Assembly (NCBI RefSeq): GCF_000160695.1
Contig: NZ_GG694006.1
Location: forward strand, 976,336-1,040,335
Direction of reading: 5' to 3'
Source: Centipeda flueggei ATCC 43531
GTDB taxonomy: Bacteria; Bacillota; Negativicutes; Selenomonadales; Selenomonadaceae
Length of the DNA: 64,000 bases
This document shows positions 50,541-57,129 of the stretch, in pieces (position 1 is the first letter of the stretch; each line of letters begins with the position of its first letter). The notes beneath the pieces are model-generated. The model was not told the DNA's origin. It saw only the letters and a program-made list of their open reading frames with translations, and did not search any database. Made by a program: the position numbers and the translations under genes.

Positions 50541-51719
50541 TCAATTCGTAAAGAGGTCGACCTGCCGTCCCGCCGCACGGTGCACATCGAATACACTGAG
50601 CAGCTCCGCAACTGCCTGGGTCGGTGAGATGCCGCCCGAGAGGACCGCATCCTTTACCTCGGGCATACGCCCGCGCACAACGGCATCGTCGAAGAACAGG
50701 TTGTGCAGATGCTCGTCGATCATGCTGTTCATCCAGTCGAGCAGCTGCCCGTCGCGCCGCTTCTTCCACACGCCGCTCTTCGTGGTCTTCTCGCGAAAGA
50801 TGCGGATGATCTCCCACAGCTCGGCAAGTCCTGTCTTCTCGATCGCGGAGGCAAGGTAAGCGTGCGTCTCCCAGCCCGGTGTCGCGGGGCGGATAAACTC
50901 GATCATGCGCTCGTACTGCCCGCGTGCGACCTTCGCCTTGATGAGGTTGTCCCCGTCCGCCTTGTTGATGACGATCGCATCCGCAAGCTCCATGATGCCC
51001 TTCTTGATGCCTTGGAGTTCATCGCCCGCGCCCGTCAGCACGACGAGCAGGAAAAAGTCAACCATGGAGCGCACCGTCGTCTCGGACTGCCCGACGCCGA
51101 CGGTCTCGATGATGATAACGTCGTAGCCGGCCGCCTCGCAGAGCAGCATGGTCTCACGGCTCTTGCGCGCAACGCCGCCGAGTGTGCCGCCCGCAGGAGA
51201 GGGGCGGATGAATGCCTCGGGACGGCGCGAGAGGGTTCCCATACGTGTCTTGTCGCCGAGGATCGAGCCCTTCGTGACAGAACTTGTGGGATCAACGGTG
51301 AGCACAGCGACACGGTGTCCCGCATCGCAGAGCATATTGCCGAACGCCTCGATCATCGTGGACTTGCCTGCCCCCGGCACGCCTGTGATGCCGATGCGCA
51401 GAGCATTGCCCGTCTTCGGCAGCAGGCGCTGAAGCACGCGCTGGGCACGCTTGAAGTGCTTGCTGCTGTTGCTCTCGATGAGCGTGATCGCACGAGAAAG
51501 CGTCATGCGGTCGCCGCGGGCCACGCCCTCAACATAGTCATCTTCACTGAGGACAAGTTTGCGGTGGGACATCCCTGTCCCGTTCAGCAATTTCGGATTG
51601 ATGTTTCCGACGGTCAGATCCTTGATGCCCTCGATGCCGCCCATGACGCTCGTCGTAAACTTCGCATCGGCGTCCTCGGGTACCCAGTCGGGCCGTTCTG
51701 TGGTATATTTTTCGCTCAT
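50541..51719 (-). CDS. meaB: Methylmalonyl-CoA mutase-associated GTPase MeaB
   Basis: 392-aa G3E-family GTPase that gates cobalamin loading and protects the mutase. The P-loop GVPGAGKST, the Walker-B-like VDPTSSVTKGSILGDKTRM region, IETVGVGQSE and the base-specificity NKAD motif are visible. The start at 51719 has an AAAGGAGG site. It lies directly downstream of mutB, separated by a hairpin, and is a classic partner. Confidence 0.95.
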   Translation of the reverse strand: MSEKYTTERPDWVPEDADAKFTTSVMGGIEGIKDLTVGNINPKLLNGTGMSHRKLVLSEDDYVEGVARGDRMTLSRAITLIESNSSKHFKRAQRVLQRLLPKTGNALRIGITGVPGAGKSTMIEAFGNMLCDAGHRVAVLTVDPTSSVTKGSILGDKTRMGTLSRRPEAFIRPSPAGGTLGGVARKSRETMLLCEAAGYDVIIIETVGVGQSETTVRSMVDFFLLVVLTGAGDELQGIKKGIMELADAIVINKADGDNLIKAKVARGQYERMIEFIRPATPGWETHAYLASAIEKTGLAELWEIIRIFREKTTKSGVWKKRRDGQLLDWMNSMIDEHLHNLFFDDAVVRGRMPEVKDAVLSGGISPTQAVAELLSVFDVHRAAGRQVDLFTN

Positions 51720-51740
51720 AAAGCCTCCTTTCGTATGGCA

Positions 51741-51768
51741 AAACGCCGCCCTCTTGTTTGAGGGCGGC
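51741..51768 (-). terminator. Intercistronic hairpin between mutB and meaB
   Basis: GCCGCCCTC and GAGGGCGGC with a 6-nt loop, then GTTTTG on the minus strand. A weak T-run suggests partial termination or protection of the mutAB mRNA. Confidence 0.6.
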
Positions 51769-51781
51769 GCCATTGTATACC

Positions 51782-53980
51782 TTAACCTGCGGCCTCTTCC
51801 TTCGCGCGTGCGATGAGAAGGGTCAGGAGCTTGATGCCCGCCTCGGGGATGTTCGTACCCGGTGCGAAGATCGCAACCGCGCCGTGCTCGTAGAGGTTGT
51901 CATAGTCCTGCACGGGGATGACGCCGCCGATGCAGACCATGATGTCATCGCGGCCGAGCTTCTTCAGTTCATCGACGAGCTGCGGCAGGAGCGTGTTGTG
52001 TCCCGCTGCGAGGGAGCTGAACCCGACCATGTGCACGTCGTTGTCGACCGCGTCCTGCGCCGTCTCGGCGGGCGTCTGGAACAGGGGCCCCACGTCGACG
52101 TCCCAGCCCATGTCGGCGAAGGAGGATGCGATGACTTTCTGCCCGCGGTCGTGTCCGTCCTGTCCCATCTTCGCGACGAAGATACGCGGACGGCGGCCCG
52201 TGAGTTCCTCGAACTCGTCCGCCATCTCACGGGCGCGGTCAAGCTCGGTCTTGTCCGTAAACTCGGAGGAGTAAACGCCAGAAATCGTATGAATGACCGC
52301 CTGGAAGCGTCCCGAGACCTTCTCCACCGCATCGGAGATCTCGCCGAGCGAGGCGCGTGCGCGTGCCGCATCGACGGCCGCCTCGAGGAGGTTGCCGTTG
52401 TCGCGGCTCTCTGCCGCCTTCGTGATGCCCTCAAGGCAGCGGCGCACGTCGTCTGCGTTGCGCTCTGCGCGCAGTTTTTCGAGACGTTCCACCTGTGCCT
52501 GGCGCACCGCTGTATTGTCGATCGCGAGGATCTGCAGGGGATCTTCCTTTTCGAGGCGATACTTGTTCACGCCGACAATGCTCTCCAGCCCAGAGTCAAT
52601 CTGCGCCTGACGGCGTGCCGCCGCCTCCTCGATGCGCATCTTCGGCAGTCCCGTCGAGATCGCCTTTGCCATGCCGCCGAGGGACTCGACCTCCTGGATG
52701 TGTGCCCAAGCACGGCGAATGATCTCGTTTGTGAGTGACTCGACGTAGTAGGAGCCGCCCCACGGGTCGATGATCTTGCAGACGCTCGTCTCGTCCTGAA
52801 TGTAAAGCTGCGTGTTGCGTGCGATGCGTGCCGAGAAGTCCGTCGGCAGGGCGATCGCCTCATCGAGCGCATTCGTATGGAGCGACTGTGTGTGCCCGAG
52901 TGCCGCTCCCATCGCCTCCATCGCCGTGCGCGCGATATTGTTGAACGGATCCTGCGCTGTGAGTGACCAGCCCGAGGTCTGGCTGTGCGTGCGGAGCGCC
53001 ATCGATTTGTCGTTCTTCGCGCCGAAGGACTTGACAATCTTCGCCCAGAGAACGCGCGCCGCACGCATCTTGGCAACCTCCATAAAGTAGTTCTTGCCGA
53101 TCGCCCAGAAGAATGAGAGACGCTTCGCGAAGTCGTCAACGGCAAGTCCCGCCTTGATGCCCGTGCGGATGTACTCAAGACCGTCCGCGAGCGTGTAGCC
53201 CAGCTCGATGTCCGCCGGCGCACCGGCCTCCTGCATGTGGTAGCCGGAGATGGAGATGCTGTTGAACTTCGGCATATACTTCGTCGTGTACTCGAAGATG
53301 TCGCCGATGATGCGCATGGACATCTCCGGCGGGTAGATGTAGGTATTGCGCACCATGAACTCTTTCAGAATATCGTTCTGAATCGTGCCCGCCATGATCT
53401 TCTTATCGACGCCCTGTTCTTCGCCCGAAACGATGAAGAACGCGAGGATCGGCAGCACTGCGCCGTTCATCGTCATGGAAACGGACATCTGGTCGAGCGG
53501 AATGCCCGAGAACAGGATGTTCATGTCCAGCATGGAGCAGACCGAGACGCCTGCCTTGCCCACGTCGCCGACCACGCGCGGATTGTCCGCATCATAGCCG
53601 CGGTGCGTCGGGAGGTCAAATGCGATCGAGAGGCCCTTCTGCCCGGCGGCGAGGTTGCGCCGATAGAAGGCGTTCGACTCCTCGGCCGTCGAGAACCCCG
53701 CGTACTGGCGCACCGTCCACGGACGGAACACGTACATCGTGGAGTAGGGTCCGCGCAGGCAGGGCGGAATCCCGCTCGCAAAGTCGAGGTGGTTCATGTG
53801 CGCATAGACATCGTGATCGTAGAACGGTTTCACGGGGATGCGCTCCATCGTCTTGTGTGTGAGTGCCTCAAACGTCCGTCCCGTACCGCCTTCGAAAAGG
53901 GCGCGCCATTCCTTGGAGTCTGCGGACGGGCTTTCGCCGAGGCTCATGCCCGTGAAATCCGGGTTCGTAAAGCCTGCCAT
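51782..53980 (-). CDS. mutB: Methylmalonyl-CoA mutase, large (catalytic) subunit
   Basis: 732 aa, adenosylcobalamin-dependent; interconverts succinyl-CoA and methylmalonyl-CoA in propionate formation. The TIM-barrel domain spans about 1-560 ([20 protein letters not shown], then [16 protein letters not shown]). The C-terminal B12 domain has the DxHxxG motif in GQDGHDRG with cobalt-ligand His610, and [10 protein letters not shown] plus GGVIPVQDY. It overlaps the mutA stop by one base, giving an alpha-beta pair. Confidence 0.97.
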
Positions 53981-56163
53981 TACGCAATCATCCCTTTCTG
54001 TTTCTGGAGACCCTCGAGGATCTCATAGCAGTTCGCGCGGACGGAGATATATTCGTCAATGCCCGCTTCCTTGTATGTCTCAAGCAGATCCTTCGGAGCG
54101 GCGCCTGCGAGAAAAACACGTGCCTGCGGCAGCACCTTGTGGAGCTTTGGTGCGAGGGCAGGGACGATCTCGGGATAGGTCGCATCCGTGGAGCAGATGA
54201 CGACGGCATCCGCACCGCTTGCACGTGCCGCCTCCGCTGCCTCATCGACGGTCTTAAAGCCGTCGTTGCCGAGTACCTCGAATGCACCGACCTGCAGGAA
54301 GCCTGTGGTAAAATCCGCGCGCGCCTTGTGCTGCGGGATGGGGCCCATGTTCGCGAGGAAGATCTTCACATTGTCGTCCTTCGCCGCCTTATAGTCCTCT
54401 GTGCGCCGGCGCAGCGCCTCAAAGCGTTCGCTCCAGCGATGCGGGGCAATCGCCGCGACCATCTCCGCACCTTTCCCCGCTGTGAGCGCCGCCATCAGCT
54501 CGGCAATCGTCGCCCCCGCAAGCGCCGCCTCAACAGCATTCTGAACGGAACCATCTGCCTTGAACGCCGCAAGTGTCTCGTCGCGGTGCTTTGTGTCGAT
54601 GTCGGAGAGATATGCTTCGATATCTTTCGTGCGCTGTGCCTTGAGTGCCGCCGTATCCTCGGCGCGTGTCTCGAGCAGCGTCTCCGTCATGTTCGGATAC
54701 ATGTTGTTGCCGACAATGCGGTCGCGGCGCAGATCGGCATTCTTAAAGCGGTCGGCGAGCACCTTCGCGATGCCCTCCTGAACCGTGCCTGCACGCAGTG
54801 CCGCAACGATGCCGCCCTCTTTCTCGATGCCTTGGAACGCCGCCCAGATTTTTTCCTTCATCTGGCGCGTCAGCGTCTCAACCGCCCACGAGCCGCCGGC
54901 GGGGTCGATCGGCTGCAGGAGACCGAATTCCTCCTGGAGCATGATCTGGACGTTGCGCGCAATGCGGCGCGAAAACTCATCGCCCTTGCGGATGGGTTCA
55001 TCAAACGGCGCACTCTCGAAGGAGTCGATGCCGCCGACAACGCCCGAGAAGATCTCCGTTGTGTTGCGGAGCATATTGACGTAGGGATCGTAGATGGTCT
55101 TGAAGAAGAGTGCGGGGCGCGCATGGATGCGCATCTTCTGCGCCTCGGCATTCCCGCCGAAGGCCTTCACGATCTGTGCCCAGAGCGGGCGCACAGCGCG
55201 CAGCTTAGCGATCTGCAGGAAGAAGTTTGCCCCCATTGATAACGCAAAGGCAATCTGCGATGCCGCCGCATCGATCGTGAGGCCCCGCTCACAGAGGGCA
55301 CGCAGATACGCCGTCGCCGCGGCGAGAACTGCCGCAACCTCCTGTACATCGTTCGCCCCGCCGCTGCTGTAGACGTCGCTGCGCACGAATACCGTACGCA
55401 GATGCGGTGCGTTCACCGTCGCCCAGCGCGCCGCCGCCGCGAGACTGTCATAGTATGAGTCAAGGGACGCAGGCAGTTTTCCGTCTGTCACAAGAGCGCC
55501 GATGGGATCTGCACCGACAATGCCACGCACATTCTTCATATCCTCGCCTGCTGCACGGCGTGCCGCCGCGACGAGCGCGAGCAGGGGCACGGCATTTGCG
55601 CCCGTGTAGACGTAGAGGGGGAACTTCGCGAGGTCAAGTCCCGTGAGGAGGACGTGCATGTCCTCGACCGTCGTCACACTCGTCCCCGTGTCGCCGACCT
55701 TCTCCGCCTGACGCGCATCCACACCGGCGCGCGACGCCGTATCGAGCACAATGTGGTAGATCGTTGCGCCCTTGTCGTTCTCATGGCGCAGGAGTTCGTT
55801 GTTCTCCGCCGGGAGCGTCTCGTCACACGCCTGCGCGATGCCCCACGGCTTGCCGATGTAGCCCGCCGCATCCACGCCGCGCAGATAGTCCCCCATGCCG
55901 GGCATAACTCCCTTCGGCAGGATGTCCTCCGTATGCTTCCGCGTGTACATGGGGTCAAAGGTGATCCCCTCATAGGTCTTCGTGAACATCTTCTTTTCGA
56001 ACGGCGCGCCCTTCAGGAGTGCCTCACAGGCGGCTTTCCACTCCTCATCCGTGGGCGGCGTGAATTCATCGAGCGGAACATCGGGGAAATCCTCGACATC
56101 CGCCGATTTCTTCAGAAGCTTCTGAAGTTCCTCGTCGCTCGACCGCTCTTTTTCTTCCGGCAT
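53980..56163 (-). CDS. mutA: Methylmalonyl-CoA mutase, small subunit
   Basis: 727 aa, homologous to MutB but non-catalytic. The barrel domain is present ([34 protein letters not shown]), but the C-terminal domain has [17 protein letters not shown] in place of DxHxxG, so the cobalt ligand is absent as expected of a small subunit. The ribosome site is AGGAGG. Its leader has an 8-bp hairpin at 56200-56222. No convincing promoter was found between it and the repeat at 56250-56412. Confidence 0.95.
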
Positions 56164-56249: not shown

Positions 56250-56412
56250 AGGGAAGCACTGATAAATTCAGCACCGCCATCTTAGCGCATTCTTTTCGCC
56301 CTGCCTGTGTCAACAAACCTCCACAGAGTACCACTCTGCGTCCGGTTTGTTTCCTTGGCAGGACAAAAATTCTGCACCAATCTGACGGACTTCATTTTAT
56401 CAGCGATTCCCT
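56250..56412. repeat. MITE-like palindromic repeat, copy 4 (most complete)
   Basis: About 163 bp. The ends AGGGAAGCACTGATAAAT and ATTTTATCAGCGATTCCCT are near-perfect inverted repeats. Inside, CCTGCC/GGCAGG, AACAAACC/GGTTTGTT and CAGAGT/ACTCTG pair in nested order, so the whole element can fold into one long hairpin. No open frame. It lies between the riboswitch region and mutA. Confidence 0.75.
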
Positions 56413-56522: not shown

Positions 56523-56557
56523 AAAAAAAATCGCCCTGAGCTTCCACCCTCAGAGCG
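56523..56557 (-). terminator. Terminator closing the riboswitch transcript
   Basis: CGCTCTGAG and CTCAGGGCG (one wobble) form a 9-bp stem followed on the minus strand by eight T. It would stop transcription from the riboswitch before mutA. Confidence 0.8.
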
Positions 56558-56640
56558 TTCCCTCATCACGAGGGAAAAACGAGAACTGAAAAGATGAGCA
56601 ATGTTTCCCCAAGGAGCAATGCTCCTTCATCCCGGGGAAA
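56558..56640 (-). other. Structured non-coding segment downstream of riboswitch
   Basis: Two strong hairpins: TTCCCTC/GAGGGAA at 56558-56576, and a two-tier stem at 56604-56640 in which TTTCCCC/GGGGAAA encloses AAGGAGC/GCTCCTT. No T-runs follow them. No supported gene lies in the riboswitch-to-terminator interval. Confidence 0.55.
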
Positions 56641-56709
56641 TCTCTGCGCATGTTCCCATACGTGCGCACAGATCTCCGCAGGATCGCGCAGGGAATCGAG
56701 CCTTGCATA

Positions 56710-56748
56710 GAAAAAGCCCATCCCGCAGCAGCAGAATGGGTCTTTTTC
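56710..56748 (-). terminator. Terminator-like hairpin after the cobalamin riboswitch
   Basis: On the minus strand AAAGACCCAT and ATGGGCTTT pair (one bulge) and are followed by TTTTT, about 120 nt after the B12 box. It is a plausible expression platform. Confidence 0.65.
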
Positions 56749-56865
56749 GGTATCGTCACTCAGTTCTCGTGTCGTTTGGTCGCAGCTGCGCCAAACTTTA
56801 TATCAAGCGAACGAATCCGCAAAATCTCCATCCCCATCACTCGCAGGTCAATCGGTGATTGTTAA

Positions 56866-57060
56866 TCAAGCAGGTCTCCTGGCTCCAGTTCATCGCTCCT
56901 TCGCATCTTCCCGGGGGCTTCCCCAGTGACTGCCGGCTCGCGCTGGCGTGCGAATTTGCTCACTGTTACAGTGGCGTGACCGCTCCGGCTTATGAGATCA
57001 TACTCTCCCTACCGGATTCCCTATGAAGCATTAAGGCTTTGCACAGCAAAACCTCTGCAC
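56866..57060 (-). ncRNA. Cobalamin riboswitch
   Basis: The minus strand carries the standard aptamer landmarks in order: GGGAATCCGGT, then GAGCGGTCACGCCACTG, and the B12 box AGCCAGGAGACCTGC at 56870-56884. A sigma-A type promoter lies just upstream. Such RNAs normally switch off cobalamin synthesis or uptake genes when B12 is plentiful. Here no such gene follows: downstream come hairpins, two terminators and a repeat, then mutA about 700 bp away. Confidence 0.92.
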
Positions 57061-57100
57061 TTGATCCAATTTCTATATGTAATTTTTATGGTACGATAGA

Positions 57101-57129
57101 ATAGTACCACTGAAAGCACTTCTTGTCAA
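57101..57129 (-). promoter_or_regulatory. Sigma-A type promoter of the riboswitch transcript
   Basis: Minus strand TTGACA, 17 nt, TACTAT, 40-60 bp upstream of the aptamer. Confidence 0.7.

Follow-up and report, generated by a model that had tools for sequence, protein, structure and literature searches.

Upstream of mutA in Centipeda flueggei ATCC 43531, a cobalamin riboswitch leads into an untranslated structured stretch, here termed E2. We propose, at a probability of about 80%, that E2 is a trans-acting antisense RNA controlled by this riboswitch and that at low B12 it would silence mcmA, which encodes the large subunit of another B12-dependent methylmalonyl-CoA mutase. The proposal draws on the riboswitch, on the predicted alternative structures AT1 and T1, on the conservation of E2, on its two-part complementarity to the mcmA start region, on its recurrence in other genera, and on the changes found in its seed.

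Organization of the mutA Leader

The window is the whole 64,000-nt stretch of DNA that was analysed. On its minus strand, on which all window features given here lie, the order is promoter, cobalamin aptamer, terminator T1, E2, terminator T2, a repeat, and mutA (53980–56163). mutA encodes the small subunit of methylmalonyl-CoA mutase and is followed by mutB for the large subunit (51782–53980) and by the meaB GTPase gene of the mutAB operon (50541–51773). A sequence-only reading of this DNA had described a B12 aptamer, complete and supplied with a promoter, followed by two terminators with hairpins between them, all located before the repeat and mutA, and this description stands, as follows. 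The promoter, TTGACA-N17-TACTAT (57129–57101), matches the consensus and is conserved in 14/14 genomes of the genus. It is the only promoter-like site in the segment 56150–57200; since shuffled sequences give a mean of 0.9 such sites, the pattern by itself is weak, and the conservation is the better evidence. The aptamer (57079–56852) matches RF00174 over the full model, positions 1–189, with 88.8 bits (gathering cut-off 31.5 bits; E = 1.4e-20), and is one of three cobalamin riboswitches in the genome. Three terminator-like sites were found versus 1.0 expected, among them T1 (56710–56748; site scored at 56717–56740), which presumably responds to B12, and T2 (56523–56556; site scored at 56532–56557), where the small RNA presumably ends. 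A search for a promoter-like site between T2 and mutA found none, and thus mutA may share the riboswitch transcript.

The repeat (56250–56412) has near-palindromic ends, AGGGAAUCGCUGAUAAA and UUUAUCAGUGCUUCCCU. A similar copy is found at locus L009, and the repeat is missing from several relatives, among them L005 (S. felix). It looks like a small mobile element.

The switching platform begins with the P13 hairpin (56836–56860), the stem of which is invariant. Reading the sequence, we find that the P13 loop, L13 (UGACC), could form a kissing interaction with L5 (GGUCA). The purine-rich stretch that follows P13 (56810–56834) is the predicted 5′ strand of an antiterminator, AT1, the 3′ strand of which (56738–56757) overlaps the 5′ strand of T1. 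Between the AT1 strands are a hairpin that covaries in the genus alignment, GUUUGGC/GACCAAAC (56774–56796), and the segment GAGAACUGAG (56759–56768). Within the genus, the predicted energies are −18.6 to −23.7 kcal/mol for AT1 and −20.4 to −26.1 kcal/mol for T1. In a raw count, the predicted AT1 pairing is at least as strong as −10 kcal/mol at 17 of the 19 E2 loci examined; the two weak cases, L230 (−8.0) and L246 (−7.3), perhaps arise because the script picked another hairpin as T1. The layout resembles that of a repressing corrinoid riboswitch dissected in PMC10653944, as described in the accessible part of that paper, and E2 is therefore expected at low B12. Because P13 and AT1 share no bases, the block of AT1 by B12 and P13 is something that we infer rather than read from overlapping strands.

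Within E2, a hairpin (56639–56674) precedes the core. The core consists of a second hairpin (56604–56640), which presents the seed CAUUGCUCAU (56594–56603), followed by a second antisense segment, CUUUUCAGUUCUC (56581–56593). A small covarying hairpin (56559–56575) separates the latter from T2.

Conservation of E2 and Its Association with mutA

The unit is present at full length in 14/14 genomes of the genus, with 70–100% identity across about 600 nt. These are members of the oral Selenomonas/Centipeda group, the named relatives being S. felix, S. infelix, S. noxia, S. artemidis, and C. periodontii. All 14 carry an identical seed, and several blocks of the alignment are likewise invariant, foremost GGGGAAACAUUGCUCAUCUUUUCAGUUCUC. 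Conservation of the hairpins in related genomes, a check proposed in the sequence-only reading, was borne out: in the 14-sequence alignment the stems named here remain base-paired in 99.0% of cells, and 8 stem pairs are altered on both sides, versus 3.9 in shuffled alignments. Compared with the other 12 sequences, those of S. felix and the window species have lost one base from the E2 hairpin loop.

A DNA search across 189 genomes of the family gave matches confined to the 14 genus genomes. That E2 is a genus-only element was nevertheless ruled out by a search for the seed, which recovered diverged units outside the genus; DNA similarity is thus misleading for E2. A search of Rfam with E2 gave no noteworthy match at E values up to 5. 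A T-box identity was considered and dropped.

mutA lies downstream of the unit in 14/14 genus genomes, at 107–508 nt from the T2 loop to the mutA start; the distance varies because of inserted stretches, such as the window repeat. The comparison was widened to another 35 full-length mutA loci of this family and class; at 34 of them, a same-strand cobalamin riboswitch precedes the gene. The exception is L115, and at L124 another gene lies in between. It follows that the riboswitch belongs to mutA across the Negativicutes, and the earlier suggestion of an orphan riboswitch, the controlled gene of which had been deleted, falls. The same reading had found an off-switch before a B12-dependent mutase paradoxical. 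Such a switch has already been measured: the mutA riboswitch of Veillonella parvula, from the same bacterial class, is among 38 riboswitches that repress a reporter in B. subtilis, according to the available part of PMC9600662, which in that part does not mention an antisense RNA.

Two-Part Antisense Match to mcmA

The seed CAUUGCUCAU is complementary to AUGAGCAAUG, which includes the start codon of mcmA. The two are encoded 127 kb apart, E2 at C8:1032929 and the mcmA start at C8:905746, so that the small RNA is encoded apart from its proposed target. mcmA encodes a methylmalonyl-CoA mutase large chain of 548 residues (TIGR00641). It lies in a propionate operon, where it is preceded by a succinate CoA-transferase gene and followed by genes for a 131-residue B12-binding chain (TIGR00640), MeaB, an epimerase, and mmdA. 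None of the genome's three cobalamin riboswitches is near mcmA. The genome contains eight ATGAGCAATG sites, one of which is E2 itself; among the other seven, only the mcmA site opens a long gene that has a Shine-Dalgarno sequence.

The mcmA start region reads ...AAUGAGAACUGUAAAAGGUAAAGGAGAAGACUUUC-AUGAGCAAUGAAAAG..., and the match to it has two parts in the correct order. The seed faces the start codon, and within the second segment CAGUUCUC plus part of CUUUU faces GAGAACUG(U)AAAAG, located 5′ of the Shine-Dalgarno sequence. The second segment is also predicted to have an alternative partner within the leader, as CAGUUCUC may pair with GAGAACUGAG.

The pairing test drew its 84 start regions from the window plus a single 10.5-kb stretch. 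Among these, the mcmA start region ranks first with the 24-nt E2 core, at −27.4 kcal/mol. The next is at −21.4 kcal/mol, and the 83 others have a mean of −14.1 kcal/mol (sd 3.2). An ordered two-segment match of 18 nt, as at mcmA, is reached by 0/83 of the other start regions. When a 51-nt window of E2 is used, mcmA is not first (−31.4 kcal/mol versus −39.8 for the best background region). This outcome, which probably reflects chance partners of the GC-rich tail, is a genuine limit of the energy test. mcmA begins ATGAGCAATGA in 14/14 genus genomes. The MSNE start is also conserved as protein, and so the constancy of the target comes in part from something other than pairing.

E2-Like Units in Other Genomes

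Of 46 genomes examined, 29 have an E2-like unit with a fitting seed downstream of a cobalamin riboswitch, namely the 14 of the genus and 15 further ones (G195, G036, G020, G033, G015, G027, G171, G035, G019, G211, G079, G052, G048, G018, and G084). Each of the latter has a hairpin and a seed that is exactly antisense, over 9–12 nt, to the genome's own mcmA start. In G018 and G084 the match is just 9 nt, and the seed bases beyond it show no compensation. No unit was found in the remaining 17 genomes, in a search that covered part of their riboswitches. An exact match of at least 10 nt to the mcmA start occurs in 32 of 107 stretches downstream of riboswitches, a count that includes longest matches outside seeds (e.g., L195, L204, and L120), which we regard as chance; shuffled targets gave a mean of 2.6 and a maximum of 8 in 30 repeats.

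Two seeds have changed together with their targets. In G195, the seed GUUGCUCAU accompanies the mcmA start AUGAGCAAC, and in G036, the seed AUUACUCAU accompanies the mcmA start AUGAGUAAU; in a comparison of eight targets, each seed pairs best with that of its own genome. The G195 case also bears on which mutase gene is followed. The G195 mutA start reads AUGAGCAAU, with AAU where mcmA has AAC, and the seed matches AAC. Thus, the seed follows mcmA, not mutA. A third candidate, GTGCTCAT at L188 of G028, was rejected, as it has no surrounding unit and is apparently coding DNA. Exact matches of the second segment extend over 12 nt in G015, 11 nt in G195, 10 nt in G009 and G001, and 8 nt in G000 and G003; taken alone, the second-segment match is within chance length in most genomes.

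The riboswitch upstream and the seed are constant, and the downstream gene varies: it is mutA, a cbiK-like gene, or none that was seen. In G211, an additional riboswitch precedes the one that leads to mutA, and E2 follows the former; in G079 it is on the strand divergent from mutA. E2 units precede cbiK-like genes in G036, G015, and G171. In G019, there are three consecutive units behind one riboswitch and, behind another, two units that precede a cbiK-like gene. An E2 unit is also present in G020, where the MutA search gave only a McmA-type paralog; the antisense role would therefore be independent of having MutAB.

The leaders of cbiK-like genes at L246, L226, L235, and L207 contain E2 units. 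We presume these genes to be cbiK-like from the resemblance of their proteins to the anaerobic cobalt chelatase. In the G019 arrays (L061, reverse complement 1950–2400, and L246), some seeds are variants (CCUUGUUCAU, GUUGUUCAU, and CACUGCUCAU). A search for targets of these variants gave ten sites, two of which are the units themselves, and no clear B12 gene among them.

A Model for E2 Action

The proposed sequence of events is as follows. With B12 bound, the kissing loop would hold P13, AT1 would be absent, and transcription would stop at T1; no E2 would be made, and mcmA would be free. When B12 is scarce, AT1 would capture the 5′ strand of T1, and transcription would run through E2 to T2. 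The E2 RNA, which we infer to accumulate under this condition, would pair with the mcmA mRNA at the start codon and at the stretch before the Shine-Dalgarno sequence, the latter being looped out. This pairing would stop translation of the B12-dependent methylmalonyl-CoA mutase of the propionate operon.

On this model, the leader that holds the off-switch for mutA would also carry an inverter acting on the second B12-dependent mutase. We add a more tentative suggestion, to which we give somewhat less than even odds, that the two mutases are exchanged. That is, at low B12, E2 would shut McmA/B and read-through at T2 would raise MutAB, and at high B12 the reverse would occur. Scarce coenzyme would then go to MutAB, which would account for the placing of a B12 off-switch before a B12-dependent mutase.

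If the model is correct, the output of this riboswitch is a trans-acting, base-pairing small RNA, found in at least three families of Negativicutes, that shifts between leaders (mutA, cbiK-like, or stand-alone) with its target constant. The model would also offer a testable reason for the B12 repression of mutA. It predicts that B12 controls how oral, gut, and rumen bacteria form propionate, by way of an operon that lacks a riboswitch of its own in the window's genome.

Alternative Explanations

An unlikely alternative is that the unit is a plain, long mutA leader, an off-switch for mutAB only, in which E2 and T2 are passive or have some further cis-regulatory role, e.g., as a second sensor. 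The riboswitch before mutA in 14/14 genus genomes and at 34 of 35 other loci is what such a leader would show, as are the repression by the V. parvula mutA riboswitch in B. subtilis (PMC9600662, in the part available) and the lack of a promoter-like site between T2 and mutA. However, E2 is also found behind riboswitches with no mutA, or with no same-strand gene seen, and its seed tracks the mcmA start, the two compensated changes included. The leader role may also hold in addition to the antisense role. The sequence-only reading was right in kind in suggesting a riboswitch-controlled small RNA, yet the likeness that it drew to ANTAR-sequestering RNAs is unsupported, E2 carrying instead a two-part antisense to the start of mcmA. 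We consider it very unlikely that E2 sequesters an RNA-binding protein in the way that EutX/Rli55 does with EutV. E2 shares with those RNAs the upstream logic of B12 riboswitch, terminator, and structured RNA, and G019 has several tandem hairpin units; the conserved part of E2, however, is a single-stranded seed that fits one start codon rather than hexaloops, and the hairpin loops outside the genus are mostly about 8–10 nt. Dual hexaloops with A1 and G4 are not among the folded E2 loops, as judged by folding. A search of the genome for ANTAR proteins gave no matches, and the control search likewise gave none.

We give hardly any credence to E2 being a remnant, an RNA decaying after loss of the gene that it once controlled. 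In G211, the riboswitch–E2–terminator unit is followed, ahead of mutA, by another promoter-like site and another riboswitch, and the genus may therefore have lost a piece. Against decay, the E2 core is near-invariant in the 14 genomes despite overall identity down to 70%, and double changes preserve its stems. Least credible is a small peptide encoded by E2. The hairpins contain one ATG frame, which is open in 12 of the 14 sequences and reads LGETLLIFSVL in its middle part. But this single frame is shifted in the window species and in the relative closest to it, lacks a Shine-Dalgarno sequence, and has variable ends, in keeping with the earlier statement that no credible frame is present.

Relation to Known Regulatory RNAs

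Small RNAs of the RyhB type shut down cofactor-using enzymes when the cofactor is scarce and are under the control of a repressor protein. E2 would share their cofactor-sparing logic but would be controlled by a riboswitch.

Several riboswitch-linked RNAs are closer in design; the statements on them rest on the accessible portions of the papers cited. AspocR of Listeria monocytogenes, antisense on pocR, is, as E2 would be, controlled by a B12 riboswitch and lowers a B12-requiring function. Its full RNA is made only without B12, and it can inhibit pocR in trans, according to a review (PMC8079631). AspocR is, however, encoded opposite its target, whereas E2 lies 127 kb from mcmA and has two short pairing segments; the targets and sequences also differ. 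In Rli55/EutX, as is proposed for E2, a riboswitch terminator stands before a structured RNA that appears at low B12 (PMC8079631, PMC8934654), but its hexaloops bind the ANTAR protein EutV, where E2 has a base-pairing seed. SreA, from a Listeria SAM riboswitch, acts in trans on prfA and so is also a riboswitch leader regulating a distant mRNA (PMC8079631). It is the ligand-bound, terminated product, whereas E2 would be the ligand-absent product and its own module behind the riboswitch. Before its own survey, PMC9943018 counts only two antisense-acting riboswitches, both opposite their targets. What would be new in E2 is trans-encoded base pairing, the known relatives AspocR and Rli55/EutX being cis-encoded antisense RNAs or protein decoys. 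Searches of the open literature, which leaves out most subscription papers and all preprints, yielded no description of an RNA of this type from Negativicutes.

Other mutA Leaders

Several mutA leaders (L101, L107, L108, L112, and L114) have another conserved stretch between T1 and T2, about GGCCUGAAAACGAGCCCCAAUGC. At L092 (reverse complement 300–1480), two complete cobalamin riboswitches stand in tandem, each with a promoter-like site, one for E2 and the other for mutA.
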